From Planctomycetota bacterium (lineage in GTDB: Bacteria > Planctomycetota > Phycisphaerae > UBA1845 > UTPLA1): a stretch of DNA of 58,132 nt. The stretch is from the NCBI GenBank assembly GCA_015654675.1, contig JAATGM010000025.1:1-58132 (forward strand), given 5' to 3'. The stretch's first letter is position 1. Each line of letters opens with the position of its first letter. Below are positions 12,515 to 54,367 of this stretch, piece by piece. The translations under genes and the position numbers were made by a program. The notes under the pieces are model-generated. The model saw only the letters and a list, made by a program, of their open reading frames with translations. It did no database searches and was not told where the DNA came from.

Positions 12515-12731
12515 CCGAATTCGGCCCTCAAGGCCGCCCTAAATGCGTTTTTCTCTGGCGTGCGGTCAAGGCGACGTTCGCTTTACCCGGGCACGCGGAA
12601 AGGATAGGATTTATATGATTCGTCATGCCCCCAACCCTCACGCCCCGGGCCGGCTCGTGCCGGCTGCCGCCGCGCTGGAACACCGGCGGGATCTCGTCGC
12701 ACGGACGCGACACAACCAGCGGAGCCGAACC

Positions 12732-13739
12732 ATGAATGCCCCAGCACCCACCCGACGTCAGGCCTTCACGCTCGTCGAAATGCTGACCGTGATCGCCATC
12801 ATCACCCTGCTGATCGGGATTCTCGTCCCGTCCCTCAGCGCCGCCCGCACCGCCGCCATGAAGACGGCCGTCCAGGCCCAGCTCACCTCCATCAGCACGG
12901 GCAACGAAATGTTCCGCAACGACGAAGGCGAGTACGCCAAGTCGAATCCCTACACGTTTGGCCCCTACGGACAGCCTACGGCCCAAACTACGGCCATGAC
13001 CAACTGGGAGGTCGACAACCTCAACGGCGCGCACCTGATCGTCGACGCCATGATCGGCCGCGATTCGCTCGGCTACGACCCCAAGCCCGGTACCGGTCCC
13101 GGCGGCACCGTCGATAGTCGCTGGTCGACTGCCGCGGGCACGCCTCCGACGACCTACCCGCGTGCTCGTCGCAACCCGTACATCAAGCCCGAAGGCATTT
13201 CGGTCGCGACGGCTGCCAAGCCCCCGCAGGACGCCTTCGGCCCTTACAGCGTTACGACTCCGAATTCCTACTTGCCGCAACCTGATCCGGCCGACTCCAA
13301 CGCGACCGTCTTCGTCGACAAGTTCGGCTTCCCGATCCTCTACTACCGCGCCCGGCCGAACTCGACCCAGCGAACCGAAATCATTCAAACCAACAACGGC
13401 ACGGCCACCGACGCCAACATCAGCGACGGCGTCTATGACGGCCGCGATAACGCGCTCTTTACGTCACCACTCGGTCGCCAGCATCGCATCGCCGATGCCA
13501 CCGCGACGATCAACTACGCTTATCCGCTGACGGCGACGCAAACCCTCAGCAACAACTTCGCCGAGTTCATCCGCTCGTTCCGCGCGACCAGCTACATCCC
13601 GGCCACCAACCCGCCGCAGATCGACTTCCCGCGGCCGGTCAACGGCGAGACCTTCCTGCTGCTGACGCCGGGCAAAGACGGCATCTACGGCAATCTCGAC
13701 GACGTCGGGAACTGGACCGTCCTCTCCGAAGAGCGCTAA
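12732..13739 (+). CDS. GspG-like pseudopilin (prepilin-type protein)
   Basis: A 335-residue protein starting MNAPAPTRRQAFTLVEML: cleavage after Ala11, Glu+5 at E16, then a hydrophobic helix to about residue 35. The C-terminus has a TPGKDGIYGN...DDVGNW ending that matches the GspG calcium-loop pattern. The reading frame extends upstream to 12543, but the upstream part codes no recognisable leader and ATG 12732 gives a normal one. The 217-bp gap to the GspK-like gene holds only a small GC hairpin (12522-12536) with no run of T directly after it. It is followed by a strong terminator, so it closes the operon. Likely a further pilin-like subunit. Confidence 0.8.
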   Translation: MNAPAPTRRQAFTLVEMLTVIAIITLLIGILVPSLSAARTAAMKTAVQAQLTSISTGNEMFRNDEGEYAKSNPYTFGPYGQPTAQTTAMTNWEVDNLNGAHLIVDAMIGRDSLGYDPKPGTGPGGTVDSRWSTAAGTPPTTYPRARRNPYIKPEGISVATAAKPPQDAFGPYSVTTPNSYLPQPDPADSNATVFVDKFGFPILYYRARPNSTQRTEIIQTNNGTATDANISDGVYDGRDNALFTSPLGRQHRIADATATINYAYPLTATQTLSNNFAEFIRSFRATSYIPATNPPQIDFPRPVNGETFLLLTPGKDGIYGNLDDVGNWTVLSEER

Positions 13740-13768
13740 TCGCTCGCTCGGATGAGCCAAGAACAAGA

Positions 13769-13800
13769 ACGCCCGCGACATGACCTGTCGCGGGCGTTTT
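13769..13800. terminator. Strong rho-independent terminator after the pseudopilus operon
   Basis: A perfect 12-bp stem (13769-13780 with 13786-13797, GC-rich core CGCCCGCGAC) with a 5-base loop, followed by T residues on the + strand and preceded by A residues, so it could also serve the convergent gene ending at 13834. Confidence 0.9.
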
Positions 13801-13833
13801 CATTTCGGTGGAACGGAAACCGGATTGCGACTG

Positions 13834-14574
13834 TCAACCGCCCCCGCCGACGGCCTTCTCCAATTGCTCCTTCAACGCTTTGTAGCGAAAGTTGTTCTTG
13901 CGGTAGGGCTGCGCCCGAATAATGTCTTCAAGACAATCGCGCACGCGGCTCCAGTTGCCGCCCTTGGCCGCTTTTTCGGCATCGACGTACAGCTTTTCAA
14001 TTCCGGCATCGTCGATTTTCTCGACGCTGGTTGCCTCATGCGTCGCCGACATGATCCGTTTGATGAAAAGCGTGCTCCCCGTGGCGCCGCCGACGATGAA
14101 CAGCGTCAGCAGGGTAATCTTGGCCGCCGCCGAGCCCTTGATCATTCCAAAGACATCCGCGATGCGCATCATCGCGGTGACTTTTTTCGGCTTCTCGCCG
14201 ATCTTCTCGGGCGGGCCTTCCTTTTTCCCCTTCTTTTCGGCTTCTTTCGCTTCCTTCGACTTCGGTGAGACTTTGTCAAACTCCTCGGCGATCTTCAGGA
14301 CCTCTTCCTTCTTCGCCTCACTCTCCGATTGCACGGCCGCGCGCTTCTGGCGGGCCGCTTCGACCTTCGCCAGCGCCGCCTCGATGGCCGCGTCCGACGA
14401 GGATTTTGCGGATGAAGCCGGACCGGCCGACGACTTCGCCATCGCCGGTGCCGCCGCAGCGGCCGGAATCTTCAGCGGCGCCTGGCACCCGGGACAGCGC
14501 ACCGCCTTCCCGGCCAGCTCATCCTTGGCCTTGAACGTCTTGCCGCATTGCTTGCAACTGACCGCGATCGCCAT
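13834..14574 (-). CDS. Zinc-ribbon protein with coiled coil and one membrane segment, function unknown
   Basis: A 246-residue protein. Residues 1-35 form a zinc ribbon with CKQC (C7, C10) and CPGC (C27, C30), the layout of the MJ0042-type ribbon often found at the N-terminus of planctomycete and myxobacterial proteins. Then come an Ala/Ser-rich linker, a charged Lys/Glu-rich helix likely to be a coiled coil (about residues 75-140), a membrane segment (ITLLTLFIVGGATGSTLFI, near 170-190) and a C-terminal helical part that may be a TPR-like helix pair. The ATG at 14574 is chosen because the ribbon begins there; the frame is open to 14706 without a sensible sequence. It lies between two pseudopilin genes on the opposite strand. 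Role unknown. Confidence 0.75.
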   Translation of the reverse strand: MAIAVSCKQCGKTFKAKDELAGKAVRCPGCQAPLKIPAAAAAPAMAKSSAGPASSAKSSSDAAIEAALAKVEAARQKRAAVQSESEAKKEEVLKIAEEFDKVSPKSKEAKEAEKKGKKEGPPEKIGEKPKKVTAMMRIADVFGMIKGSAAAKITLLTLFIVGGATGSTLFIKRIMSATHEATSVEKIDDAGIEKLYVDAEKAAKGGNWSRVRDCLEDIIRAQPYRKNNFRYKALKEQLEKAVGGGG

Positions 14575-14653
14575 CGTTTTGCCCGGATTATCGCGAACTT
14601 CGGCGCGGCTCCACTTTGCTGCGCAACCCTGATGGATTATCGTTCCGTGCGGG

Positions 14654-15244
14654 ATGCGAGGCAAACTTCCCCTCGGATTATACGCGTCCAGAAACGTCGG
14701 CCCCATCAGCCGTTCGGCCGGTTATTGCGCGAGTTCTCGGTCGCTCCGGCCACGGGCCATGACGCTGGTCGAAATGGTCGTTGCCGTCACGGTGGTCGGC
14801 ATCGCTCTCTTCTTGCTGGTCGGGTCGGCCCGCCTCATCCGCGAAGACGCCCGCAGTCAGCTCGCTCGCCAACTGCTCACCACGCTCGATCGCGCCCTGA
14901 TCGCCTACCAGATTGCCGAAAACGCCTACCCAGTCGCGCCCGACGAGGATGCTGATTTCGCCGTCGCAGCCCTGCTCGCCTCGCCGGCCACTCACGGTCT
15001 CGCCGCCGAACTCCCCGATTCCCTCTGGAATGCCGCCCGCCCGCACACGCTGGTCGACCCGTGGGGCCGGCCGCTCCGCTATCTGTCCGATCCGCTCCGT
15101 CATCCGTACGTCCGCACCAACGAAAACCGGCCGGTCTTCGTCTCGGCCGGGCGCGATGGCGACTTCTCCGAGGCCGCCGAGGGCGACAACCTTCGCAGCG
15201 ACGACCCCGACGATGCCGGCTTCCGCCGCTCCGTCCGCAATTGA
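14654..15244 (+). CDS. GspG-like pseudopilin next to pgk
   Basis: A 196-residue prepilin-like protein. RPRAMTLVEMVVAV gives cleavage after Ala35, Met+1 and Glu+5 (E40); the leader of 35 residues is long, so a later start is possible though no good internal one is seen before the cleavage site. The C-terminus has DPWGRPLRY and SAGRDGDF, the GspG calcium-end hallmarks, and lies closer to normal GspG length than the paralogue at 4558. It is 61 bases upstream of pgk and may be co-transcribed with it, an odd pairing of a surface fibre subunit with a glycolytic enzyme. Confidence 0.8.
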   Translation: MRGKLPLGLYASRNVGPISRSAGYCASSRSLRPRAMTLVEMVVAVTVVGIALFLLVGSARLIREDARSQLARQLLTTLDRALIAYQIAENAYPVAPDEDADFAVAALLASPATHGLAAELPDSLWNAARPHTLVDPWGRPLRYLSDPLRHPYVRTNENRPVFVSAGRDGDFSEAAEGDNLRSDDPDDAGFRRSVRN

Positions 15245-15305: not shown

Positions 15306-16550
15306 ATGCCCAAAAGAACCATCGATCAGGTCGACGTCACCGGACGCCGCGTCCTGATGCGCGTCGATTTCAACGTCCCCATCGAAGATGGCCGAATCAC
15401 CGACGATCGCCGAATTGTCCAGGCCCTGCCGTCCATCCGTAGCGTCCTCGATCGCGGTGGCCGGCTGATCCTCATGAGCCACCTGGGCCGCCCGGAAGGA
15501 AAGGGCTTCGAGGAGGCCTACTCCCTGGAACCCGTCGGCCGCCGCCTCGGCGAGTTGCTCAACCGCGAAGTAGCCCTGGCCGCCGACTGCATCGGCACCG
15601 CCGTCGCAGAGCGTGCCGCAGCCCTCAAGAACGAAGAGTGCTTCCTTCTCGAAAACCTCCGCTTTCACGCCGAGGAAACCCTGATCGACAAGGCGAAAAA
15701 GAACCCCGACAAGCGCCTCACCCCGGAACAGGCCTCCCGGGTTGACGCCTTTGCGAACGCCCTCGCTTCCCTGGGCGCGCTCTACTGCAACGACGCCTTC
15801 GGAACCTGCCACCGCCGGCATGTCAGCATGTACGACGTCCCCATGAAAATCGGCGCCGGCCGTCGCGTCTGCGGCTTCCTCCTCAAAAAGGAATTGCAAT
15901 TCCTGGGCGATGCCCTGCATGCCCCGCGCCGGCCGTTCGTGGCCATCCTCGGCGGCGCAAAGGTCAGTGACAAAATCGGCGTTATCGAAAGTCTCCTCCC
16001 CAAGGTCGACCGCCTCATTGTCGGCGGCGCCATGGCTTACACCTTTTTCGCCGCCCGCGGAGCCGACATCGGCAAGAGTCTCTGTGAGCAGGATAAGGTC
16101 GAACTAGCCCGCAAGCTCATTGACAAGGCCGGCGACAAGCTCGTCCTCCCGCTCGACAGCGTCTGTGCCGCAGAATTGCGCGCCGGCGTCGAAACGCGCG
16201 TCTGTGACAGCTCGATTCCCGCCGACCTGATGGGCCTCGATATCGGCCCGCGCTCGATCGAGCGCTTCAGCGAAGTCGTAAAGGCCGCCAAAACTGTCGT
16301 CTGGAACGGCCCAATGGGCGCGTTCGAGACCAAGCCGTTTCACGTTGGCACCGCCGCAATCGCGGCCGCCCTCGCCGAAGCGACCAAGAAGGGCGCAACC
16401 ACCATCATCGGCGGCGGCGACTCGGCCGCAGCCGTCGAACAGGCCGGCCTGGCCGATAGCATGACCCACATCTCCACCGGCGGCGGCGCCAGTCTCGAAT
16501 TCCTTGAAGGCAAGCCCTTCGCCACAATCGATATCCTCGACGAGGCCTGA
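15306..16550 (+). CDS. pgk: Phosphoglycerate kinase
   Basis: A 414-residue glycolytic enzyme that transfers phosphate from 1,3-bisphosphoglycerate to ADP. Family landmarks are [12 protein letters not shown] at the N-terminus, [22 protein letters not shown] (usually NDAFGTAHRAH), [24 protein letters not shown] and [11 protein letters not shown], in the expected order across both lobes. The frame is open upstream to 14913, but the ATG at 15306 with a GGGAGA ribosome site starts exactly at the family N-terminus. It is followed 11 bases later by rpe, forming a sugar-phosphate operon. Slightly longer than the usual 395-400 residues because of an insert near residues 120-140. Confidence 0.96.
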
Positions 16551-16561
16551 TCGCTGCTCCG

Positions 16562-17257
16562 ATGCCGACTAACCCGCTCGCACAGCCCCGCATCCGCATC
16601 GCGCCGTCGCTGCTTGCGTCCGATTTTTCGCAACTTCGCGACGAACTACAGCGCATCGAAACCGGCGGCGCGGACGTCGTCCACCTCGACATCATGGACG
16701 GCCACTACGTCAGCAACATCAGCTTCGGTATTCCCGTCATTGAAAAAATCCGCCCCGTCACGAAGCTCTTCTTCGACACCCACCTGATGATCGACCAGCC
16801 CCATCGCTACGCCGAGGCCTTCGTCAAAGCCGGCTCCAATGGAATCACTTTTCATACCGAAGTCGTGACGGAGCCGTTTGAGCTGATCGAATACCTCCGC
16901 AAGCTCGGCGCGACGGTCGGCGTCAGCCTCAACCCCAAGACCCCGGCCATCGACATCGAGCAATATCTGTCGCACGTCGATCTCGTAAACGTCATGACCG
17001 TCGAGCCCGGTTTCGGCGGTCAGAAGTTTCTGTCCGACATGCTCGACAAAGTCACCGAGCTGGCCAAACGCCTCCGTCCCGAGCAGCGCCTCGAAGTTGA
17101 TGGCGGCATCAATGAAGAAACGGTTCAACGCGCCGTAACCGCCGGGGCCGACATGCTCGTCGCCGGAACGGCCGTCTTTCGCGCACCCAGACCGGCCGAT
17201 GCGATCGCGACGCTTCGCCGGCAGGCGGAGGCAGTGTGGAAACACAAGACGGCGTAA
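16562..17257 (+). CDS. rpe: Ribulose-phosphate 3-epimerase
   Basis: A 231-residue TIM-barrel enzyme interconverting ribulose 5-phosphate and xylulose 5-phosphate. Visible signatures are [23 protein letters not shown] (metal ligands H41 and D43), [22 protein letters not shown] and [10 protein letters not shown], the last two lining the phosphate site. Length is normal. It begins 11 bases after pgk and its last 22 bases overlap the next gene, so the three are probably co-translated. Links glycolysis to the pentose phosphate pathway. Confidence 0.96.
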
Positions 17258-17862
17258 GGCAGATCATCCTCGTTCCCTGGGGCCGCACCGAGTGGGATGC
17301 CCAGGATCGCCTCGTCGGCCATACCGATGTCCCCCTCAGTGATGAAGGCAAGCTCGAAGCCCGCCACATCGCCGCCGCCGTCGCCAGTCTTCGGCCCGCA
17401 GCGCTTTACGCCGGCCCGGACGAGCCGGCGAAGCAGACCGCCGAAATCCTTTCCGAGCACCTGCGTCTGAAGGTGCGGGAAAAAGAGGAGCTGCATGAGG
17501 TCAATCTCGGTCACTGGTCAGGACTGACCGAGGCCGAGTTCCGCGAACGATTCCCAAGCGTGCACCAGATGTGGCGCGACGATCCGACCGCGATTCAGCC
17601 GCCGGAAGGCGAGTCGCTCGACGAGGCCGCGCTACGTCTCGACGCGGCCGTCGCTGCCCTGCTGAAACGATCCCGCACCCTGCAGCCCGTCATTCTCATC
17701 ACCGGCCCGTTCGCCATCGCCGCCATGTCGCTCCGCTTGACTGGTCAGCCCCTTTCAATGTTTTGGCAGCAACTCGAGGACCAGCAACGTTGGATCGTCG
17801 TGCCGCTGCCCCCGGCAGGGGGGCGCGGTGGGGGCCGGCCGCCGCGCCGCGCCGCGGGCTAG
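17236..17862 (+). CDS. Histidine-phosphatase (phosphoglycerate mutase) superfamily protein lacking catalytic residues
   Basis: A 208-residue protein that follows the phosphoglycerate mutase/histidine phosphatase layout: strand then GRTEWDAQDRLVGHTDVPLSDEGKLEA, the QTAEIL helix, LHEVNLGHWSGL and a late strand-helix unit. However the RHG motif is PWG (P14-W15-G16), the second catalytic Arg in the SSxLxRAxQTA segment is Pro (AGPDEPAKQTA), and the second His of the late motif is missing (LITGPFAI). Only the acid Glu88 remains. By family knowledge R-H-R-H is required for phosphohistidine chemistry, so I infer a pseudoenzyme with a binding or regulatory role. It overlaps rpe by 22 bases. The Gly/Arg-rich C-terminus is also odd. 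Confidence 0.82.
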   Translation: METQDGVRQIILVPWGRTEWDAQDRLVGHTDVPLSDEGKLEARHIAAAVASLRPAALYAGPDEPAKQTAEILSEHLRLKVREKEELHEVNLGHWSGLTEAEFRERFPSVHQMWRDDPTAIQPPEGESLDEAALRLDAAVAALLKRSRTLQPVILITGPFAIAAMSLRLTGQPLSMFWQQLEDQQRWIVVPLPPAGGRGGGRPPRRAAG

Positions 17863-18010: not shown

Positions 18011-18937
18011 ATGACCGAACGCGTCCGCGAAATCCTCAGTTGGTACGGAAGCGACAACCCGGGCTCCCTGACGAACCTCGCCCGGATGTTGAATCACGGC
18101 CGATTGGGGGGGACCGGACGGATGGTCATCCTCCCCGTCGATCAGGGCTGGGAGCACGGCCCGGCCCGTAGTTTCGCCCCGAATCCCGACGGCTACGATC
18201 CGCGTTACCACTTCAAGCTCGCCCTCGAGGCCGGCTGCAGCGCCTACGCCGCTCCCCTCGGCTTTCTCGAGGCCGGCGCCCGCGACTTCGCCGGGGAAAT
18301 CCCGCTGATCCTGAAAGCCAACAACCACGATCTGCTCGCCGACGAAAAGGACTCGTGGCAGGCACTGACCGCCTCGGTCGACGACGCCCTCCGCATCGGC
18401 GCCTGCGCCGTCGGCCTGACGATCTATCCCGGTTCGGCCCTCCGCAAGGAAATGTACGAAAACCTCCGCCGCTACGCCGAGCAGGCCAAGGAAGCCGGGC
18501 TGGCCGTGGTCGTCTGGTCCTATCCGCGCGGCAGCCAACTATCCAAAGAAGGCGAAACCGCCGTCGATGTCTGCGGCTACGCGGTACACATCGCGGCCGA
18601 GATGGGGGCGCACATCCTCAAGGTCAAACTTCCGACAGACCACATCGAGCAGGACGCTGCCCGTAAGGTCTACGAAAAAGAAAAAATTCCCATTGGCACG
18701 CTCACCGAACGCGTCAGGCATGTCATGCAGTGCGCGTTCGCCGGACGAAGAATCGTGGTGTTTTCCGGAGGAGCGAAGAAGGACGACGAGTCGGCCATCT
18801 TTGACGAGGCCCGCGCCATCCGCGACGGCGGCGGCATGGGCTCGATCATTGGGAGGAACTCGTTCCAGCGAAAGAAGGCCGATGCACTCAAGATGCTCGA
18901 CTCGATCATGAGCATCTATGAGGGGAAGACAAAGTAA
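18011..18937 (+). CDS. Class I fructose-bisphosphate aldolase (DhnA/FbaB type)
   Basis: A 308-residue TIM-barrel aldolase of the archaeal/FbaB type, cleaving fructose 1,6-bisphosphate by a Schiff base. Signatures are ILPVDQGWEHGP, the SAYAAPLGFLE and LKANNHDLL strands, HILKVKLPTD with the likely Schiff-base lysine (K204 or K206), VVFSGGAKKDD and the phosphate-binding GGGMGSIIGRNSFQR. Start ATG 18011 follows an AGGAG-like ribosome site (ccaggagcgatcagaa). It follows the pgk-rpe block after a 148-bp gap with its own possible promoter and is closed by a terminator. I leave the symbol empty because fbaB is the likely but not proven name. Confidence 0.93.
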   Translation: MTERVREILSWYGSDNPGSLTNLARMLNHGRLGGTGRMVILPVDQGWEHGPARSFAPNPDGYDPRYHFKLALEAGCSAYAAPLGFLEAGARDFAGEIPLILKANNHDLLADEKDSWQALTASVDDALRIGACAVGLTIYPGSALRKEMYENLRRYAEQAKEAGLAVVVWSYPRGSQLSKEGETAVDVCGYAVHIAAEMGAHILKVKLPTDHIEQDAARKVYEKEKIPIGTLTERVRHVMQCAFAGRRIVVFSGGAKKDDESAIFDEARAIRDGGGMGSIIGRNSFQRKKADALKMLDSIMSIYEGKTK

Positions 18938-19948: not shown

Positions 19949-19976
19949 GCCGCTTGCAATGATTGAAGCATGATTC

Positions 19977-20014
19977 GAACGCCCGCGGGCACCGGCTCGC
20001 GGGCGTTCTTTTTT
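19977..20014 (+). terminator. Rho-independent terminator after the DUF1579 gene
   Basis: An 11-bp stem GAACGCCCGCG/CGCGGGCGTTC (19977-19987 with 19998-20008) around a 10-base loop, followed by six T. The stem core AACGCCCGCG is the same as in the terminator at 13769. Confidence 0.92.
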
Positions 20015-20098
20015 CACTCGAAACTCGAATCTGAGCGGAATTGGGGTCTTTTTGGTACTATTCGCGGCGGGGTGGGCTGGCGCGCAGGTGAGTGGACC

Positions 20099-20968
20099 AT
20101 GATCGAAATTGTCTATCAGTACGATCCGAAGACCAGCCGGCCGGTTCCGCCGCCGGCGACGCCGGCCGAGGCGCGGCAGCGGCTGTGCGACGGAAACCGG
20201 GACTTTGTCGCTATGTTCGGGGATCTGTCGGCGTCGAAGGACTCGCGGCAGGTGGTGACGTTCGACCTGGCCGACCTCGGCGTGAACCAGGTGAAGGGCG
20301 CGGCGCCGCGGCAGCGACCTTTCGCGGTGGTAATGGGCTGTTCGGACGCCCGGGCCCCTACCGAGTTGATCTTCCATCAGGCGAGTAATGCACTGTTCGT
20401 CGTGCGCGTGGCCGGGAACGTGCTCGGCAATGAATGCCTTGGAAGCATCGAGTACGCGGTTCGCAATCTTGGGAGCGACCTGAAGCTGCTGGTGGTGATG
20501 GGTCACAGCGGCTGCGGGGCGGTGACGGCGGCGGTGGATGCGTTTCTCGATCCGTCGCGCTACCTCACGGTGGCGAGCAGCCAGGCGCTGCGAGCGATCG
20601 TGGATCGGATTGTGGTACCCGTCCGGGCGGCGGCGGACGCCCTGGAGCGGGTTCGCGGGCTGCGCGTGACGAAGGCGCCGGGATATCGGCGGGCACTGAT
20701 CGAGTCGGCGGTGGTGCTCAACTCGGCCATCACGGCGCGAACGTTGAAGCATGAGTTCCGCGAGGTGTCGGCCGAAAACATCGACGTGGTCTACGGCGTG
20801 TACGACCTTGTAACGCGGGGAGTAAACCTGCCGGACGGCGTCGGGACGAAGTCTGGGGCGGCGCTGTTCAATCCGCCGTTGAGCGACAGCGGATTTGAAG
20901 AGCTGAGCGAGAAGCTGGCGAGCAGCGCGGCGGTGACGCGGATTCTGGACGACGAACGCCTGGAGTAG
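20099..20968 (+). CDS. Beta-class carbonic anhydrase
   Basis: A 289-residue zinc enzyme interconverting CO2 and bicarbonate. The zinc ligands are Cys81 in GCSDAR (with the Asp83-Arg85 dyad), His136 and Cys139 in MGHSGCGAV; the VVRVAGN strand is also typical. It has about 60 extra residues between the N-terminal helix and the first zinc ligand and no signal peptide, so it is cytoplasmic. The ATG at 20099 has AGGTGAG eight bases upstream. The next gene, a bestrophin-like channel, starts four bases after the stop, which suggests joint work on bicarbonate. Confidence 0.93.
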   Translation: MIEIVYQYDPKTSRPVPPPATPAEARQRLCDGNRDFVAMFGDLSASKDSRQVVTFDLADLGVNQVKGAAPRQRPFAVVMGCSDARAPTELIFHQASNALFVVRVAGNVLGNECLGSIEYAVRNLGSDLKLLVVMGHSGCGAVTAAVDAFLDPSRYLTVASSQALRAIVDRIVVPVRAAADALERVRGLRVTKAPGYRRALIESAVVLNSAITARTLKHEFREVSAENIDVVYGVYDLVTRGVNLPDGVGTKSGAALFNPPLSDSGFEELSEKLASSAAVTRILDDERLE

Positions 20969-20972
20969 CGGC

Positions 20973-21863
20973 TTGTTTCCGAAGCTATTTGTCGCGCGAA
21001 AGCTTGCGATCTGGACCACGATCACGCTGCTGTATGCGGCGGTGGTGACGGTGCTGGTGAAGGCCAAGCTGATTCCAAACTGGGATCTGGCCGACGACCT
21101 GGTGGGCGGTCTGACGGCGCTGCTCGGCTTCCAGGTGATGTTCCGCAACAACGCGGCGAACGACCGGTGGTGGGAGGCGCGGAAGCTGTGGGGACAGCTC
21201 ATCAACGACTCGCGCAATCTGGCGCTGAAGGCCCGGAGCTATGTCGCGCTGGAGCCCGGCGAACGGGCCGAGTTCGGGCGGCTGTTGATCGGGTTTGCCC
21301 ATGCGCTGCGGATGCATCTGCGCGGTCCGTGCGCGGTTCGGGCGGTGCCGGGGTTTGAGCGCGACGCGAGCACCTTTCCGCACGCGCCGGGGTACGTGGC
21401 GGGGCTCGTGTTTGACTCGCTGGAGCGATGGGAGCGCGAAGGAAAGCTACACACGAGCGTTTGGCTGTTGGATCGGCACGCGGGGGCGTTCATGGATATC
21501 AGCGGGGCGTGCGAGCGGATCAAGAATACACCGCTGGCGTCGTCGTACCGGTCGCTGCTGCGGTGGGCGATCGCGATCGATCTGGCACTGGTTCCGCTGG
21601 CGGCGGCACAGTGGGCGGGCTGGCTGAGTCTTCCGATCGTCGCGGCGGGGTGCATCTTTTTGCTGGGGGTTGAGCTTGCGGCGGAGGAGGTCGAGGAGCC
21701 ATTCGGAACGACCGGGGACGATCTGCCGCTGGAGAAATATTGCGAAACGATCGAGACCTTTGTACGCGCGGCGCTGTGCGGTAACGACGACGTGGCCGCA
21801 CGCGGCACGCCGGTACGACGCGTCGAGGTGGGCGCGACATCGGGCCAGGCGGATGGTCTGTGA
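20973..21863 (+). CDS. Bestrophin-like (UPF0187) anion channel
   Basis: A 296-residue membrane protein starting at TTG 20973, with GGAG eight bases upstream inside the end of the carbonic anhydrase gene. Bestrophin-family features: first membrane segment followed by LTALLGFQVMFRNNAANDRWWEARKLWG, then ISGACERIKNTPLASSYR, paired C-terminal membrane segments, and the ending VELAAEEVEEPFGTTGDDLPLEKYC. Family knowledge: bacterial bestrophins form pentameric ion channels in the inner membrane, and algal relatives are thought to pass bicarbonate. The tight coupling with carbonic anhydrase supports a bicarbonate or chloride channel. No ion selectivity can be read from the sequence. Confidence 0.88.
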   Translation: MFPKLFVARKLAIWTTITLLYAAVVTVLVKAKLIPNWDLADDLVGGLTALLGFQVMFRNNAANDRWWEARKLWGQLINDSRNLALKARSYVALEPGERAEFGRLLIGFAHALRMHLRGPCAVRAVPGFERDASTFPHAPGYVAGLVFDSLERWEREGKLHTSVWLLDRHAGAFMDISGACERIKNTPLASSYRSLLRWAIAIDLALVPLAAAQWAGWLSLPIVAAGCIFLLGVELAAEEVEEPFGTTGDDLPLEKYCETIETFVRAALCGNDDVAARGTPVRRVEVGATSGQADGL

Positions 21864-47037: not shown

Positions 47038-47138
47038 GGGTTGGTCCTGTGGCTGGCCGGATATTACCGCGCGGGATAAGATTCGTCGCGCTACGCGGTT
47101 CAGAATGAGGCGGTTTGCACCGCCGACGGAGCATGCTC

Positions 47139-50100
47139 ATGGCCGTTCGGTTTGTTCTGGGGCGCGCGGGGACGGGGAAGACTCACCACTGCCTGTCGGA
47201 GATTCGCGGCGAACTGAGCGAGCGACTGGTCGGGACGCCGTCTCTGGTTCTGCTCGTTCCTGAGCAGGCGGCGCTGCAGATGGAGCGACAGCTTCTGTCG
47301 GGCGGCGAGCTACCGGGATTGGGGCGATGTGAGGTTCTCAGTTTTCGACGGTTGGCGCACCGCGTGTTGAACGCGGCGGGCGGTCCGTTGCCGGTCGTGC
47401 TGACGCCGATCGGGCGCGAAATGGTGCTGCGCGATCTGTTGGCGCGCAATCGGGCGGGCCTGCGCGAGTTTGACGGTGTGGCGCTGCGGCCGGGGTTTGT
47501 GGCGTCATTGGGGCGGACGATTGTTGAGCTGCTACAGGAATCGGTGTCGCCGGATCGGATGCTCGAGCAGGCGGAGGCGTGCAGGGCGGCGGGAAATCCG
47601 TCGGGCGACCGGCTGCACGACGTGGGGGTCATGTATCAACGATATATGCAGTTTCTCGGATCGGAGCGGGTAGACCCGGAGGGCGTTCTGGACCTGGCAC
47701 GCCGGCATCTTGATCGGGTTGGGTGGCTGAAGGACTGCCGGCTCTGGGTGGACGGATTCGCCGGATTCACCCAGGAACAGGTGCGGCTTCTGGTCGATCT
47801 GTGCGGGCGGGCGGCGGATGCGACGGTTTCGTTCCTGGTTGATCCGGCGGACTCCGCGGCGGCGCGGGTCGGTGCGCGAGTCGATCCGATCGGTCTGTTT
47901 GCGAGGACGGAGCGCACGGCGATCGGCCTGCACGACGCGCTTAGGGACGCGGGAGTTGAACTGGCGTCGCCCATCGTGCTGAGGTCCGCGCATCCGCCGC
48001 GATTTCGAGCAGCGGAGCTCATCCAACTGGAAGCGGGCTTGTTCGGTCCGGTGGCCGGTGCCCAGGTAAGGACGAGCGACTCGGTACGGTTTTTCGCGGC
48101 GCCTGATCGCCGCGCGGAGGCGCGTGCGGTTGCGGCGGAGATTCGCCGCCTGGTGCGGCGCGAACAGGCGCCGCTGCGCTATCGCGACATCGCGATCATC
48201 GTCCGCGATCTGGAGCCCTACCACGACTTGCTCTCGGCGGAATTGGGCGAACATGGCGTGCCATTCTTCATCGATCGGCGGCGGCCGACCAGCCATCATC
48301 CGCTGGTCGAGGCCGTGCGGGCGTTGTTGCGGCTGCGCGGCGGACGGCCCGGGCGGGCGTCGGCCCTTCCGCTGTTGCTCAAGACCGGATTGACGCCCCT
48401 CGACGACGATGCGGCCGATCTGCTCGAGAACTACCAATTGATGCACGGTCTGGACGAGGTAGCCGCCCGGACCGGCGGTGACTGGACCTATCCGTCCCTC
48501 GATTCGGACTCGAGCGGGCGCGTCAGCGACTTAGAGTCGCAAACGCTGGCGCGCGTCAACGCAGCGCGGCAGCGCTTGGTTACTGCACTGGGCGAATGGT
48601 GGATCGCCGACGCGAACGAGCGCTCTACAAGTTGCCGCGAATTGGCGGCCGGGCTGGTCGTGGCGCTGGTACGCCTCGGCGCGCCGGCCACGCTCTCGTC
48701 GTGGTCACTCACGGCGTCGCAATCCGGCGATCTGGATCAAGCTCAGGAGCATGCGCAAGTCTGGACCGATTTGAGCGAGCTACTGGATGAACTCGTCAGC
48801 GCCCTCGGCGACACGCAAATGTCGATGAGCGAGTTTCGTGAGGTACTCGAGGCGGGCCTGGCCGATTTTTCGCTCGGGCTGGTGCCGCCGACTCTGGACC
48901 AGACCCTGGTCAGTTCGATCGAGCGGAGCCGGCATCCGCCGGTGCGGGCGGCGTTCGTACTGGGCTTTTCGGACGGCGAATTCCCGCATCGTCATCGGAG
49001 CGTTGAACTGATCGATGACGCGGAGCGCGAATGGCTCGAACGGGGCGGCGTCAAACTCGGGCCATCGCGGCGGTCGCGATCGCTGGATGAGCGGATGCTG
49101 GCCTACATCGCCGTGACGCGTCCGAGCGAACGGCTGTGGGTGAGCTATCCGGCCGCGGACGATCAGGGTCGCGCGATACAGCCGTCGCCCTACCTGGCGG
49201 ACTGTCTGCGGGCGCTGGGATGGGACTCGTCGTCGGTTGAGACATTGCGCGGCACAGCGGAGCTGCCGCGCGTCGCGGATGTATCCACGGTCGGCGATCT
49301 CTCGGCCGGACTCGCGGTCGCAATGCGTTCACTGGCCGAGCGGCCCAGCCGGACGATCATCGATGCGGAAGCGTGGCTGGCAGTGTATGAGGAGGTGCGC
49401 GCGAAACGGTGTCCGGGAGCTGAAGGGGCGCTGCGGGCGCTAGCGCCGACCCGGAAAGCCGCGTTGAGCGCCGATGCAATATTGGCACTGCATGGCCAAA
49501 CGCTGGCAACCAGTGTGACGCGACTGGAGGCGTTTGCGAAGTGCCCGTTTCAGCATTTCGCGAAATACGAACTTCGGCTGACGCCGCGCCGCGTGAATGA
49601 AGTCGGGGCCCTGCATTGGGGCCGGCTCTATCACGCGATGCTGGAAGAGTTCGTCAATGTGCTGGCGTACAACGGCGAGTCACTGGCTGCGCTGACGGAC
49701 CAGCAGATCACGGACCGACTTGCGCAGATCGCGGATTCGGCCGTCAGTGCGCTGAATGACGCGAGCCCGCTGGACGCGGCAGCGAAGAAAATCCTACGTT
49801 CGCGCGGAGCGCGCGACCTGGCGGTCTCTATTCGCGCTCAACAGCTTCGCGCCGCTCCCGGATTGCGGCCGAGGTTCACTGAGCGGGCATTTGGGTCCGA
49901 CGCGACCGGATCGCTGCCGGCCATCGTGCTGAAGACGCCGAAGGGCCGGACCGTTCGCCTGCGCGGACGCATCGATCGAATCGACCTGGTCCAGGAACCG
50001 CAGCGCGGCGAAACGCTGGCAGTCGTGTTCGACTACAAACGATTGGACAAAAATCGCCTGCGACTGGATGAGGCGCTGCACGGTCTGGCGCTGCAGTTGC

Positions 50101-50633
50101 TCGCCTACTTGTTGGTGCTGAAGGACCACGGCGAACAATTGGCCGGCGGTGGCGTGCGGCCGGCTGGGGCCTTTTATCTGCCGCTGGTGACGGGATTTCA
50201 GACCGTCGAGCATCCTTCCAAAGCGAAACCGGCGTTACGACCGTTCATGCCGCGCGGATTATTCGACTTCGATGCATTGTCGGCGTTGGACCCTGGCCTC
50301 GCGGAGGGCGCCAGTTCGCTGTTCAGCGCGCGGCGGAACAAGGACGGGACGATGGGAAAGGCGCGCTCGCTCGATACCGCGTCGCGGCCAGCATTTGAGC
50401 GAATCCTTGAAGGCGTTCGCGAGAAGCTGGGGGAATTGGCGGATCGAATCATTGATGGCGAGATTCGCGTCGCACCGGCGATTTATCGCAACCGGCTGCC
50501 GTGTGAGCAGTGCGAATATCGAGCGGTCTGCCGCTTTGAATATTCGTCGGGGTTTGCGGTTCGGCTTCCGGTCATCGAACGGGGCGAGATGCTACGACGG
50601 TTCGGCGAGGGCGAGGGCAACGACGAGCCATGA
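47139..50633 (+). CDS. addB: AddB-like helicase-nuclease subunit
   Basis: A 1164-residue subunit of a double-strand break processing complex. Features: Walker A GRAGTGKTH at residues 8-16 at the very N-terminus, helicase-like core, and a C-terminal PD-(D/E)XK nuclease with RLRGRIDRIDL and VFDYKRLDK. Four cysteines for an iron-sulfur cluster are in place: Cys802 in KCPFQHFAK and Cys1122, 1125 and 1131 in CEQCEYRAVC, the layout of AddB. The start at ATG 47139 has GGAG seven bases upstream; TTG 47115 and ATG 47133 are alternatives. ATGA overlap with addA. Family knowledge: AddAB unwinds and trims DNA ends and loads RecA. Confidence 0.9.
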   Translation: MAVRFVLGRAGTGKTHHCLSEIRGELSERLVGTPSLVLLVPEQAALQMERQLLSGGELPGLGRCEVLSFRRLAHRVLNAAGGPLPVVLTPIGREMVLRDLLARNRAGLREFDGVALRPGFVASLGRTIVELLQESVSPDRMLEQAEACRAAGNPSGDRLHDVGVMYQRYMQFLGSERVDPEGVLDLARRHLDRVGWLKDCRLWVDGFAGFTQEQVRLLVDLCGRAADATVSFLVDPADSAAARVGARVDPIGLFARTERTAIGLHDALRDAGVELASPIVLRSAHPPRFRAAELIQLEAGLFGPVAGAQVRTSDSVRFFAAPDRRAEARAVAAEIRRLVRREQAPLRYRDIAIIVRDLEPYHDLLSAELGEHGVPFFIDRRRPTSHHPLVEAVRALLRLRGGRPGRASALPLLLKTGLTPLDDDAADLLENYQLMHGLDEVAARTGGDWTYPSLDSDSSGRVSDLESQTLARVNAARQRLVTALGEWWIADANERSTSCRELAAGLVVALVRLGAPATLSSWSLTASQSGDLDQAQEHAQVWTDLSELLDELVSALGDTQMSMSEFREVLEAGLADFSLGLVPPTLDQTLVSSIERSRHPPVRAAFVLGFSDGEFPHRHRSVELIDDAEREWLERGGVKLGPSRRSRSLDERMLAYIAVTRPSERLWVSYPAADDQGRAIQPSPYLADCLRALGWDSSSVETLRGTAELPRVADVSTVGDLSAGLAVAMRSLAERPSRTIIDAEAWLAVYEEVRAKRCPGAEGALRALAPTRKAALSADAILALHGQTLATSVTRLEAFAKCPFQHFAKYELRLTPRRVNEVGALHWGRLYHAMLEEFVNVLAYNGESLAALTDQQITDRLAQIADSAVSALNDASPLDAAAKKILRSRGARDLAVSIRAQQLRAAPGLRPRFTERAFGSDATGSLPAIVLKTPKGRTVRLRGRIDRIDLVQEPQRGETLAVVFDYKRLDKNRLRLDEALHGLALQLLAYLLVLKDHGEQLAGGGVRPAGAFYLPLVTGFQTVEHPSKAKPALRPFMPRGLFDFDALSALDPGLAEGASSLFSARRNKDGTMGKARSLDTASRPAFERILEGVREKLGELADRIIDGEIRVAPAIYRNRLPCEQCEYRAVCRFEYSSGFAVRLPVIERGEMLRRFGEGEGNDEP

Positions 50634-53600
50634 GTTCGCGGGCGTGGACGAAAGAGCAGCGCGAGGCGATCGGCGAAGTCGGCCGAAACGTCCTCGTGTC
50701 GGCGGGCGCTGGCAGCGGGAAGACGTCGGTGCTGGCGGAACGTTGCGCGTTTCTGGTGGCCGACGCGCGGCCGGCCTGCGACGTGGATCGCTTGCTGGTG
50801 GTGACGTTTACCGACGCCGCGGCCGCGGAGATGCGGCACCGGATTATTGAAACACTGCGGCGTCGGCAATCGGCACGGCCCTCGGATGCGCGGCTGACGG
50901 AGCAGATCGCGCTGGTTGATACCGCCGCAATCTCGACGATGCACTCGTTTTGCCGGCGCGTGCTGGGGCGGTTCTTCGCGAAGGTGGGCCTCGATCCCGG
51001 ATTTCGGACGCTTGATGCGCACGAGGCGCGGCTGCTGCGGCGGGATGTACTGGACGATCTGATGCGCGAGTTGCACTCGGACGAGTCGCCGCTTGCGAAA
51101 CGATTGGATGCGCTGGTGGCGGAAATTGGACAGGGGCGAGACGAAACGATTCGAGGCACGATTGACGAATTGGCGGCATTTCTCGAATCGGTGGTCGATG
51201 CGGATGAATGGCTGGCGAAATTGCAGGCAACATACGCGGCGGCCAAGCCGGGGGAATTGAGCGCAGCATGGTCTGAGGAATTGCGCAGGACGATTCTCGA
51301 AGACCTGGTCGGACTGATCGACGAAGCCCAGGCGGGCATTGCTGAGATGGCCGCGCGCGGCATGGCCGTATTAGCGTTACTGAGCAAACCCCTGGATGCA
51401 TATCGGCAACAGCTTGAGGAATGGCATGCGACGCTGGATCGCGATCGGGTGAAGGGGGTCGAGCGCGTACGCGAGAAGCTGATAGAGTTTGCGTTTCCCA
51501 AGATGCCACGAAAAGACGCAACCGAAGTGAAGCGGGCAGAGGCGCATGAGCGCGAAGAGTTTGAGCGGCGACAAGGGCAATTCACGGCGATTCGCGAAGG
51601 ATTCAAGAAGTTTCAAGCTCGGTACGGATTATTCAGTATCGCTGAGTATGCCGAAGGGATCGCCATGACAGCGCCACACGTGGCGACGATGCTCGATCTG
51701 GTGCAGGAATTCCGCCGGCGCTATGTTGCGGCGAAGCGCGAGTTGGTGGCCGTGGATTTTTCCGATCTCGAACGACTCACGTTGCACTTGCTGCGCGACC
51801 CGCAGGCCCCCGACGGACTCACGCTCATCGCGAAATGGCTGCGAAGCCAGTACGAGCATTTGCTGGTTGACGAATATCAGGACATCAACCCGGTTCAGGC
51901 CGAGATTCTGCGACGCGTATCCCGGCAAAACGAGACTGGCAGGACGGGTAATCAGTTCGCGGTGGGCGATGTGAAGCAATCAATTTACCGCTTCCGACTG
52001 GCCGAGCCGGGGTTGTTCATCGCGCGTCAGCAGTCGGCGCGCGACCCGCGAAACGCCGGCCGCGAGACGGCCATCGACCTCAACGCCAACTTCCGCAGCG
52101 GCAGCGGAGTGCTGCGGCTAGTGAACGCGATGTTCTCGCGATTAATGGCGGCTGATCTGGGCGGGATTGTGTATGACGATCGCGCGGCGCTGCGGCCCGG
52201 AACTGCGGCGCAGGAATCTGTAGCGGGGCCGGCGGTTGAGTTGGCGGTGTTGGCGGAGGAGCGCGGGCCTGAGCCGGACGAGATAGAGGAAACGGGCGAC
52301 GACAACGCCCCGGAAACCGGTGCTGGAGAATGGGAGCGGATCGAGCGCGAGGCGTGGTGGGTGGCACGACGGATCGACGAGCTGCGGCGAGCCGACCCGA
52401 TGCTGAAGTTTGGCGACATCGCGATTCTCATGCGCTCTCCCCAAATTCATGCCACACAACTCGTGCGAACACTGGAGCGGCAGGGCGTGCCGGTGTTCGC
52501 CGAGTTGACGGGGGGATTCTTCGACTCGCTGGAAATCCGCGACGTCCTGGCATTCCTGTCGGTGCTGGACAACGCCCAGCAGAACATTCCGTTGGCGGCG
52601 TGGCTCCGCTCGCCGCTCTGTCCGACGCCTCTGAACGATTCCCAGCTTGTGGCGATTCGAGCCGCGGCGGAACACGGCGAGCCCTTCTGCTTTGCAGTAT
52701 CGCGATATGCGGAGCAAGGCGCGGACGTGGAGTTGCGCCGATTGCTCCGCGACGCGCTCGGCGAAATCGAACGCCGTCGGGCAGATATTCGCCAGCGACC
52801 GCTGCCCGACGTGCTGGCGGAGATTCTTCGCGAGACGGGTTACGCGGCATACGCGGCCGCCCTTCCAGAGGGCCCGCAGCGGACCGCGAATCTCACTCGG
52901 CTGCACGAGCATGCACGAGATTTCGGCGAGTTCTCCCGGCAGGGTCTGCACCGGTTTCTCGCCTTTCTCGATCAATTGCGCGACGAGGAGGCCGACCTAG
53001 GCGCCGCGCCGGCGCTGGCGGCGTCGGCCGACGTGGTTCGCGTGATGTCAATTCACCGGTCGAAGGGGTTGGAATTCCCAGTTGTGTTCGTCGTGGAGCT
53101 GGGAAAGCGATTCAATCTGCGCGATTCGCAGGCCGCGATTCTGGTGGACCGGCGATTGGGGCTTGGGATGCGCGCGGCCGACGTCGAAAGGCGAATCTCG
53201 TATCCAACCCTGCCGCATCAAATGATCGCTCGGGAGGTTCGGCGCCAGTCGCTCGCGGAAGAAATTCGCACGCTTTACGTGGCGATGACGCGCGCGAAGA
53301 ATCGCCTCGTGCTGGTTGGGAGCGGTTCGCTCGAGGAGCTTGCCGCAGCGCGGGCGGGCGCCGTGCCGGCCGGCGGGCCGCTGCCGCTGCATCAGCGCGC
53401 GGCGGCGGTGTGCTATCTGGACTGGTTGCTGGCGGTGCTTCGGACGCTGCGCGCCGGGGAGGCCGTCTGGCCGGACCAAACGCCGGGAGCAGACGCGCTG
53501 CTCACGGTTTCGATGATCTCGAGCGAGGAGATGCGCTCGTGGACGCAGGGGCAGACGTTTGAGCCCGACGTACGGGCCCGACTGGAGGCCTTTGCGGCGC

Positions 53601-54367
53601 TCGGACCACCGGACAAGGCATTCGCGCGGATCTCGCTCGACACGGTCGCGGCGCGTGCGGCAATGGCGCGGTTGACTGCTCGATACGGCTTCGAGCGATT
53701 GACCCAGCTTCCGGCCGTCGTCGCGGCCAGCGCGTTGAAACAGCGGTTCGACACGACGCGCGATCCCGAAAATCCGGCGGCTGGCGATCGGCTCTCGTTC
53801 GCGCCCCGACTGGCCATGCCGATGTTCATCGAGACAGCACGACACGCGTCGCCGACTCAGCGCGGTGTTGCGGTACATGCCTTCCTGCAGCGCGTCGACC
53901 TGTCGCGGATATGCGACGAACAGGATCTGGGCGCGCAGCGCGAAGGATTCGTACATACTGGGCAATTGGCGCCCGAAGAAGCAGCTGAACTCGATCTCGC
54001 CGCGCTGGCCTGGTTCTTCAGCACCGAAGTGGGCGGCGAGCTTCGCGAGCGCCGCGCGACGGCACGCCGCGAAGAAGCATTTGTCTTTGGCATGCTGCCG
54101 ACGACTTACGACGCAGACGCCGGCGCGGCGGGCGACGATCGGATCATCGTTCGCGGCGTAATCGACTGTTTCTTCGAAACGCCGAGCGGAGTCGTGCTCC
54201 TGGATTACAAGACGGACGGCGTGGCCGAGTCGGAAGTCGCGGCGCGGACGAAAGTATATGGTCCGCAGCTTCGAGTCTACGCCGAGGCGCTGGCGGCCAT
54301 CTGGAAGAAAAACGTAACGCGGCGCGTGTTGGTTTTCCTGGGGCCGCGACGTATCGTCATCGTTTGA
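50630..54367 (+). CDS. addA: AddA-like UvrD-type helicase-nuclease subunit
   Basis: A 1245-residue superfamily 1A helicase with nuclease. Walker A SAGAGSGKT is at residues 24-32, the Q motif before it (WTKEQREAI), motif II in LLVDEYQDINPVQ, motif III GDVKQSIYRFR, motif V VMSIHRSKGLEFPVVFV, motif VI TLYVAMTRAKNRLVLVG. The C-terminal nuclease has VRGVIDCFFET...VVLLDYKTDG (about residues 1170-1195). It begins at ATG 50630 overlapping the addB stop. All ATPase and nuclease residues appear intact. Both subunits are full length, so the complex is probably functional and takes the place of RecBCD. Confidence 0.93.
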   Translation: MSSRAWTKEQREAIGEVGRNVLVSAGAGSGKTSVLAERCAFLVADARPACDVDRLLVVTFTDAAAAEMRHRIIETLRRRQSARPSDARLTEQIALVDTAAISTMHSFCRRVLGRFFAKVGLDPGFRTLDAHEARLLRRDVLDDLMRELHSDESPLAKRLDALVAEIGQGRDETIRGTIDELAAFLESVVDADEWLAKLQATYAAAKPGELSAAWSEELRRTILEDLVGLIDEAQAGIAEMAARGMAVLALLSKPLDAYRQQLEEWHATLDRDRVKGVERVREKLIEFAFPKMPRKDATEVKRAEAHEREEFERRQGQFTAIREGFKKFQARYGLFSIAEYAEGIAMTAPHVATMLDLVQEFRRRYVAAKRELVAVDFSDLERLTLHLLRDPQAPDGLTLIAKWLRSQYEHLLVDEYQDINPVQAEILRRVSRQNETGRTGNQFAVGDVKQSIYRFRLAEPGLFIARQQSARDPRNAGRETAIDLNANFRSGSGVLRLVNAMFSRLMAADLGGIVYDDRAALRPGTAAQESVAGPAVELAVLAEERGPEPDEIEETGDDNAPETGAGEWERIEREAWWVARRIDELRRADPMLKFGDIAILMRSPQIHATQLVRTLERQGVPVFAELTGGFFDSLEIRDVLAFLSVLDNAQQNIPLAAWLRSPLCPTPLNDSQLVAIRAAAEHGEPFCFAVSRYAEQGADVELRRLLRDALGEIERRRADIRQRPLPDVLAEILRETGYAAYAAALPEGPQRTANLTRLHEHARDFGEFSRQGLHRFLAFLDQLRDEEADLGAAPALAASADVVRVMSIHRSKGLEFPVVFVVELGKRFNLRDSQAAILVDRRLGLGMRAADVERRISYPTLPHQMIAREVRRQSLAEEIRTLYVAMTRAKNRLVLVGSGSLEELAAARAGAVPAGGPLPLHQRAAAVCYLDWLLAVLRTLRAGEAVWPDQTPGADALLTVSMISSEEMRSWTQGQTFEPDVRARLEAFAALGPPDKAFARISLDTVAARAAMARLTARYGFERLTQLPAVVAASALKQRFDTTRDPENPAAGDRLSFAPRLAMPMFIETARHASPTQRGVAVHAFLQRVDLSRICDEQDLGAQREGFVHTGQLAPEEAAELDLAALAWFFSTEVGGELRERRATARREEAFVFGMLPTTYDADAGAAGDDRIIVRGVIDCFFETPSGVVLLDYKTDGVAESEVAARTKVYGPQLRVYAEALAAIWKKNVTRRVLVFLGPRRIVIV

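Follow-up and report, generated by a model that had tools for sequence, protein, structure and literature searches.

Enzymes of the histidine phosphatase superfamily use a covalent phosphohistidine mechanism, and both the mycobacterial glucosyl-3-phosphoglycerate phosphatase Rv2419c and PhoE of Bacillus stearothermophilus are active enzymes of this superfamily. The best structural match of the protein studied here, referred to as X, was PspA of Hydrogenobacter thermophilus (PDB 4ij5; H9A mutant 4ij6) with a Z score of 25; the model of X and PspA superimposed with an rmsd of 1.7 over 186 residues at 27% identity. The fold of X is also similar to those of Rv2419c and PhoE (Z 22-25). Unlike PspA, X lacks the His of the RHG motif, the second Arg and the second His, and with the PspA model NF045917, its best NCBIfam equivalog match, it reached 91.6 bits compared with a cut-off of 350. 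X differs in the same way from Rv2419c and PhoE, of whose phosphoryl-transfer residues the Glu alone is kept.

A different case is presented by the flea XcAP proteins. According to the respective study (PMC10728186), both catalytic His residues are replaced in these salivary acid-phosphatase-like proteins, which are now non-catalytic ligand binders, and the change is recent and restricted to fleas. The XcAP proteins resemble X in being superfamily members without the catalytic His and show by example that a dead member can take on a binding function, whereas X is bacterial, occurs phylum-wide and is encoded in a carbon-metabolism cluster, and a ligand role of X is putative. A description of the X family was not found in the open-licence literature searched, a scope outside which most subscription journals lie. 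X represents a pseudoenzyme lineage within a known superfamily and occurs in several classes of one phylum.

The rpe-overlapping gene and the fold of its product

X is encoded in the window, i.e. the whole stretch of 58,132 nucleotides that was analysed (Planctomycetota bacterium, assembly GCA_015654675.1, contig JAATGM010000025.1). Its features are listed in Table 1. A spacing of 4 nt separates the GGAGG from the GTG start of X, and the reading frame of X overlaps the last 22 nt of rpe. With pgk upstream of rpe and the start of an aldolase gene 148 nt past the stop codon of X, the arrangement is the one described in the sequence-only reading. accD is absent at this locus and sits elsewhere in the same genome (C61).

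Table 1. Features at and around the gene for X (positions in the window)
Feature	Position	Strand	Details
pgk, phosphoglycerate kinase	15306..16550	+	Pfam PGK E 7e-149; start chosen by homology
rpe, ribulose-phosphate 3-epimerase	16562..17257	+	NCBIfam TIGR01163 E 2e-72, above cut-off
GGAGG, likely ribosome-binding site of X, within 3' end of rpe	17227..17231	+	read from sequence
X, catalytically dead branch-1 histidine-phosphatase-fold protein	17236..17862	+	208 aa, GTG start, stop 17860-17862
Pro-Trp-Gly, X codons 14-16, instead of Arg-His-Gly of active enzymes	17275..17283	+	PDB sequence alignment, homologue alignment
Pro, X codon 64, at second catalytic Arg position	17425..17427	+	PDB sequence alignment, homologue alignment
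Glu, X codon 88, catalytic-site Glu retained	17497..17499	+	PDB sequence alignment, homologue alignment
Gly, X codon 157, at second catalytic His position	17704..17706	+	PDB sequence alignment, homologue alignment
class I fructose-bisphosphate aldolase	18011..18937	+	NCBIfam NF006704 E 1e-153, above cut-off

X matched the Pfam family His_Phos_1 (E 3.4e-36) and no second Pfam family up to E 1. His_Phos_1 was also matched by 82 of 82 members of the set A2, which comprises 82 of the 84 listed members (the truncated L136 and L052 were left out). By this match and by its fold, which gave Z 25 with 4ij6, X belongs by descent to branch 1 of the histidine phosphatase superfamily. Matches to NCBIfam models (PspA, CobC, GpmB) were partial and all far under the cut-offs. 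Among the models of cofactor-dependent phosphoglycerate mutase (dPGM), TIGR01258 gave 31.5 bits against a cut-off of 81.7, and the other listed dPGM models also stayed below their cut-offs. The AF2 model of X, calculated from a 30-row alignment, had a pLDDT of 92.5 and a pTM of 0.87, and the model of the distant member L179 had a pLDDT of 95.9. All 50 listed structural matches of the X model were, judged by title, superfamily phosphatases, mutases or fructose-2,6-bisphosphatases. The profile match, the model and the similarity to PspA bear out the phosphoglycerate mutase-like layout that had been read from the translation.

Sequence alignment with PDB entry 1ebb (PhoE) placed P14-W15-G16 at the RHG motif, P64 at the second Arg, E88 at the Glu and G157 at the second His, in agreement with the residue calls previously read from the letters. 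Among the residues characteristic of branch-1 enzymes, X has Trp instead of the RHG His, Pro instead of the second Arg and Gly instead of the second His, and retains the proton-donor Glu/Asp (E88). As the catalytic residues are gone, X is unable to use the covalent phosphohistidine mechanism. The same losses are common to homologues located beside the same genes and are therefore not due to a sequencing error. For a rat fructose-2,6-bisphosphatase, PMC10728186 cites a His-to-Ala change that lowered activity less than tenfold, so a protein that has lost the His may still be active.

The genome carrying X also has a 552-aa open frame that matches iPGM_N, as well as a SixA-like phosphatase whose RHA is kept, so X need not provide these chemistries. 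A role of X as the sole phosphoglycerate mutase of the organism was rejected because of the iPGM_N match; in 15 of the 61 genomes searched no such match was found.

Dead and active homologues in Planctomycetota

Matches to X were found in 42 of 61 related genomes. At the best 30 loci of this search (L001-L030), pgk and/or rpe lay directly upstream in every case, and RHG occurred in none. In a class-wide search 212 of 397 genomes had a match (E 1e-3), in a phylum-wide search 146 of 392 (E 1e-20); both counts include active paralogues. We extracted 60 class/order loci and 59 usable phylum loci, which represent part of all matches (those of the phylum chosen among the matches listed), together with 58 named loci. 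Loci were picked by similarity to X and not by their neighbours; L238, a sequence of 100 bases, was left out. Removal of identical sequences reduced 207 sequences to 191, of which 188 were scored, as L058, L084 and L085 lack key positions.

Sequences with H15 and R64 were assigned to the active set and those with any other residue at position 15 to the dead set. The second His and, in the dead set, R64 were not used in the grouping and therefore confirm it independently. The 73 active homologues all have R14, H15, R64 and H157, with Glu (64) or Asp (9) at position 88. Among the 115 dead homologues, H15 and R64 occur in none, H157 in four and R14 in 48, while position 88 is Glu in 80 and Asp in two. 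No sequence with the first His but without the second Arg was present among the 188 scored. In the class sample the E-value separated the two kinds: 35 of 60 loci fell below 1e-34 and were all dead, and the 25 loci above 1e-32 were without exception active. Phylum-wide, separation by similarity alone failed, with an active row at 3e-42 and dead rows up to 2e-37; the dead/active split rests on residues and neighbours.

Active copies among the 58 named loci came from Planctomycetota, Firmicutes, Chloroflexi and others. Dead copies came from Phycisphaerae and other Planctomycetota MAGs with the one exception of L058, the scan of genome contigs having used a Phycisphaerae-type motif poorly suited to copies outside Planctomycetota. 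L058 is a truncated copy resembling the dead type on a MAG contig labelled Polyangia, and its place outside Planctomycetota may be a binning error.

In a tree calculated with the catalytic columns blanked, dead and active copies were split on one branch by a single change (SH-aLRT 80; quick search on a subsample of 55 of the 115 dead and 45 of the 73 active rows). The result speaks for a single ancient loss, without being strong proof at such modest support. Dead copies L153, L155, L157 and L158 (family f24) still have a His at the position of the second His and are perhaps an intermediate stage of loss.

Could X be a decaying pseudogene or an annotation artefact? Its catalytic residues are gone, and a few homologue matches cross stop codons; in L015, the one examined individually, the stop coincides with the natural end of its close relative L016. 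NG86 dN/dS values, on the other hand, were between 0.05 and 0.27 in ten close pairs, some with a member in common (an eleventh gave no value), full-length open reading frames occur in many genomes across the phylum, and the scaffold is as conserved as in the active enzymes (mean column information 1.86 bits in dead and 1.95 bits in active copies). On the basis of dN/dS and conservation we rejected this explanation, which is almost certainly wrong. X is an enzyme fold without catalytic residues that is under selection, as is characteristic of a pseudoenzyme.

Conservation in the dead copies was lost most strongly at, among others, positions 14, 15, 64 and 157; some C-terminal columns rank equally high but align poorly. 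We considered whether the catalytic His had migrated to another conserved position. A conserved His column does not exist in the 115 dead sequences, the richest column having 27.7% His, and the nucleophile has therefore not simply shifted to another conserved His.

X might still be an enzyme, of new specificity, with a site rebuilt in the old cleft from, for example, Glu126, Glu88 or Asn88, Arg14 in the copies that retain it and further conserved polar residues. In the 30 dead copies from other classes (L179-L205, L212, L216, L217), RPG replaces RHG in 18 and Asn occupies position 88 in 25, leaving Arg14 often as the sole remnant of the catalytic set. Judged by the residues, selection on a rebuilt site would account for this pattern better than drift. 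Together with R14 in the 48 dead copies, the frequent RPG indicates that part of the old site may still be selected. E126, R25 and R134 are conserved to 99-100% and T18, W94, P122, P123 and G125 to at least 90% in dead copies (weighted). However, active enzymes conserve E126, R134 and G125 to the same degree, so that these residues probably serve the structure. Among the 115 sequences, conservation above 75% is not reached by any column of His, Cys, Asp, Ser, Tyr or Lys, and the residues replacing RHG, the second Arg and the second His vary between dead lineages. We therefore regard a rebuilt catalytic site as unlikely.

Lys or Arg was gained in dead compared with active copies at positions 79 (68% versus 21%), 81 (93% versus 8%) and 105 (97% versus 56%) and further at 108, 111, 141, 144, 145 and 165. 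Overall net charge was ruled out as the cause, dead copies being on average more acidic. These nine positions form a candidate contact surface; judged from the fold topology rather than from coordinates, several of them are expected on the side that faces away from the old active site. Acidic residues were gained at positions 62/63, beside the lost Arg64. The sequence-only reading put forward a possible regulator or substrate-binding subunit of sugar-phosphate metabolism; a role in binding a sugar phosphate through the old pocket is weakened by these acidic gains in the family and by the loss of both pocket Arg and both His residues in X itself.

Gene neighbourhood of the dead copies

Dead and active copies differ clearly in their genomic surroundings. 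A same-strand rpe or pgk was located upstream within 5.5 kb at 105 of the 114 dead loci that had sufficient flanking sequence (at 99 of 114 within 250 nt) and at none of 73 active loci. The start of accD was found within 1.5 kb downstream at 87 of 109 dead and 0 of 70 active loci. At least one of these links, rpe/pgk upstream or accD downstream, was present at all 115 dead loci. The same dead copy beside pgk/rpe was thus found when searched for in relatives, and the link to a pgk-rpe block claimed in the sequence-only reading is real; as a description of the cluster the block is incomplete, since accD is also linked. The proposal of a pseudoenzyme is well supported by homologue residues, tree, neighbours and dN/dS, and widens to a selected gene family across Planctomycetota.

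The fullest order was gap-pgk-rpe-X-accD (e.g. L135), followed in some lineages by lnt; gap, accD and lnt were named by eye, and a match to TIGR00515 confirmed accD next to X in relatives including G018 and G024. We infer that this order is the ancestral one. Where grouped (32 of 72 loci), accD began at a median distance of 16 nt relative to the X end, as far as the rough ORF starts can tell. No match to rpe, pgk or accD overlapped X by more than 60 nt in 115 loci, a test that detects C-terminal but not N-terminal fusions.

In the family to which the window belongs (f1, 16 rows), pgk was upstream in 16 of 16, rpe at the locus in three and the aldolase gene downstream in seven. accD was found downstream in none, with 131 nt of downstream sequence in L003 and about 1.5 kb in most others. 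In the 13 rows without a local rpe, pgk is directly adjacent to X. Eleven of these 13 genomes (G001, G002, G005, G007-G010, G012-G015) encode elsewhere a full-length Rpe that is only 31-35% identical; of the other two, G006 has an Rpe fragment and G004 (75% complete) none. The rpe located in the pgk operon in the rest of the order is missing from them while a divergent Rpe is encoded at another place, an apparent gene displacement. X has thus outlasted the replacement of its neighbour, and pgk stays beside it.

In genomes that lack a dead copy, 17 rpe loci were inspected, and none had such a copy beside rpe. pgk was upstream in 15 of these loci and accD no more than 200 nt after rpe in nine, lying at 1.6 kb in a tenth; L255, with only 266 nt after rpe, is too short to show accD. 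These genomes keep the order of rpe, pgk and accD, so X is dispensable there, and the lineages without X appear to have lost the gene. By these comparisons, X looks to be under selection where present but dispensable over long time scales.

These data bear on two further explanations. X might be the allosteric or scaffold partner of one specific neighbour, Pgk, Rpe or AccD. At least one of the three genes is near X at every dead locus, pgk is upstream throughout f1, and accD often starts very close to the end of X, as far as the rough starts allow. Yet none of the neighbours is constant: within f1 rpe and accD mostly or entirely fail (with the short downstream sequence of L003 noted above), accD of the window's genome is elsewhere, a divergent Rpe is used in most genomes without the local gene, and rpe stays next to pgk or accD where a genome lacks X. 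This reading is doubtful. The lack of a constant neighbour also argues against X as an obligate subunit; for Rpe in particular, such a role is weakened by the f1 rows without local rpe, by the divergent Rpe and by the 17 rpe loci without X.

Gene order can persist without a functional link, and X might have a function unrelated to carbon metabolism and ride in a stable housekeeping operon for co-expression. Unrelated genes occur in the cluster of some lineages (lnt, named by eye, after accD), and X is missing from several lineages. Against this, pgk is still upstream in all f1 rows though the accD link and 13 of 16 rpe links are gone, which is weak evidence. We consider a mere passenger quite improbable.

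Possible role of X and other genes of the window

X is a widespread pseudoenzyme of Planctomycetota, predicted from its residues to be without activity. The dead copies in similar neighbourhoods across the phylum suggest an old, still useful non-enzymatic protein. With slightly better than an even chance, in our estimate, X is a selected non-catalytic accessory or regulatory pseudoenzyme of a central-carbon cluster and not an obligate subunit. The branch-1 histidine-phosphatase fold would have lost its phosphoryl-transfer chemistry early in Planctomycetota, probably once, and would afterwards have been retained in the central-carbon gene cluster. As a soluble non-catalytic protein with a presumed regulatory role, X could adjust flux by binding to a partner among the enzymes of the pgk/rpe/accD pathways or to one of their non-phosphorylated ligands. 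More specifically, and only tentatively, X may be a non-enzymatic regulator, specific to Planctomycetota, in which the histidine-phosphatase fold has become a binding module that links Pgk and Rpe of lower glycolysis and the pentose-phosphate pathway with AccD of fatty-acid synthesis. If this is so, X would represent a type of carbon-flux control protein that is new, and it would have become fixed close to the base of a bacterial phylum.

Since family tools score X as a histidine phosphatase, with a Pfam match far above cut-off and partial matches to mutase and phosphatase equivalogs, automatic annotation probably treats it as an enzyme, and a false reaction may have entered metabolic models of Planctomycetota. 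Lineages without X are natural knockouts and offer an unusually clean system for studying what bacterial pseudoenzymes do.

Other genes of the window were recorded along with X. Just upstream of pgk, at 12543-15244 (+), are two pilin/type II secretion-like genes (N_methyl; T2SSG), the second of which ends about 60 nt before the pgk start. Between them, on the opposite strand (13834-14706, -), a 290-aa protein is encoded that had no Pfam match at E 0.001 and shows, by eye, a CxxC...CxxC zinc-ribbon-like pattern. Farther downstream, at 47115-54367 (+), two large open reading frames overlapping by 4 nt putatively encode, judged by eye, an AddB/AddA-type helicase-nuclease pair. At 19970-21863 (+), only 4 nt separate a carbonic anhydrase gene (Pro_CA, E 3e-23) from the bestrophin-type channel gene after it (Bestrophin_2, E 3e-46), and the two are possibly a bicarbonate-handling pair.
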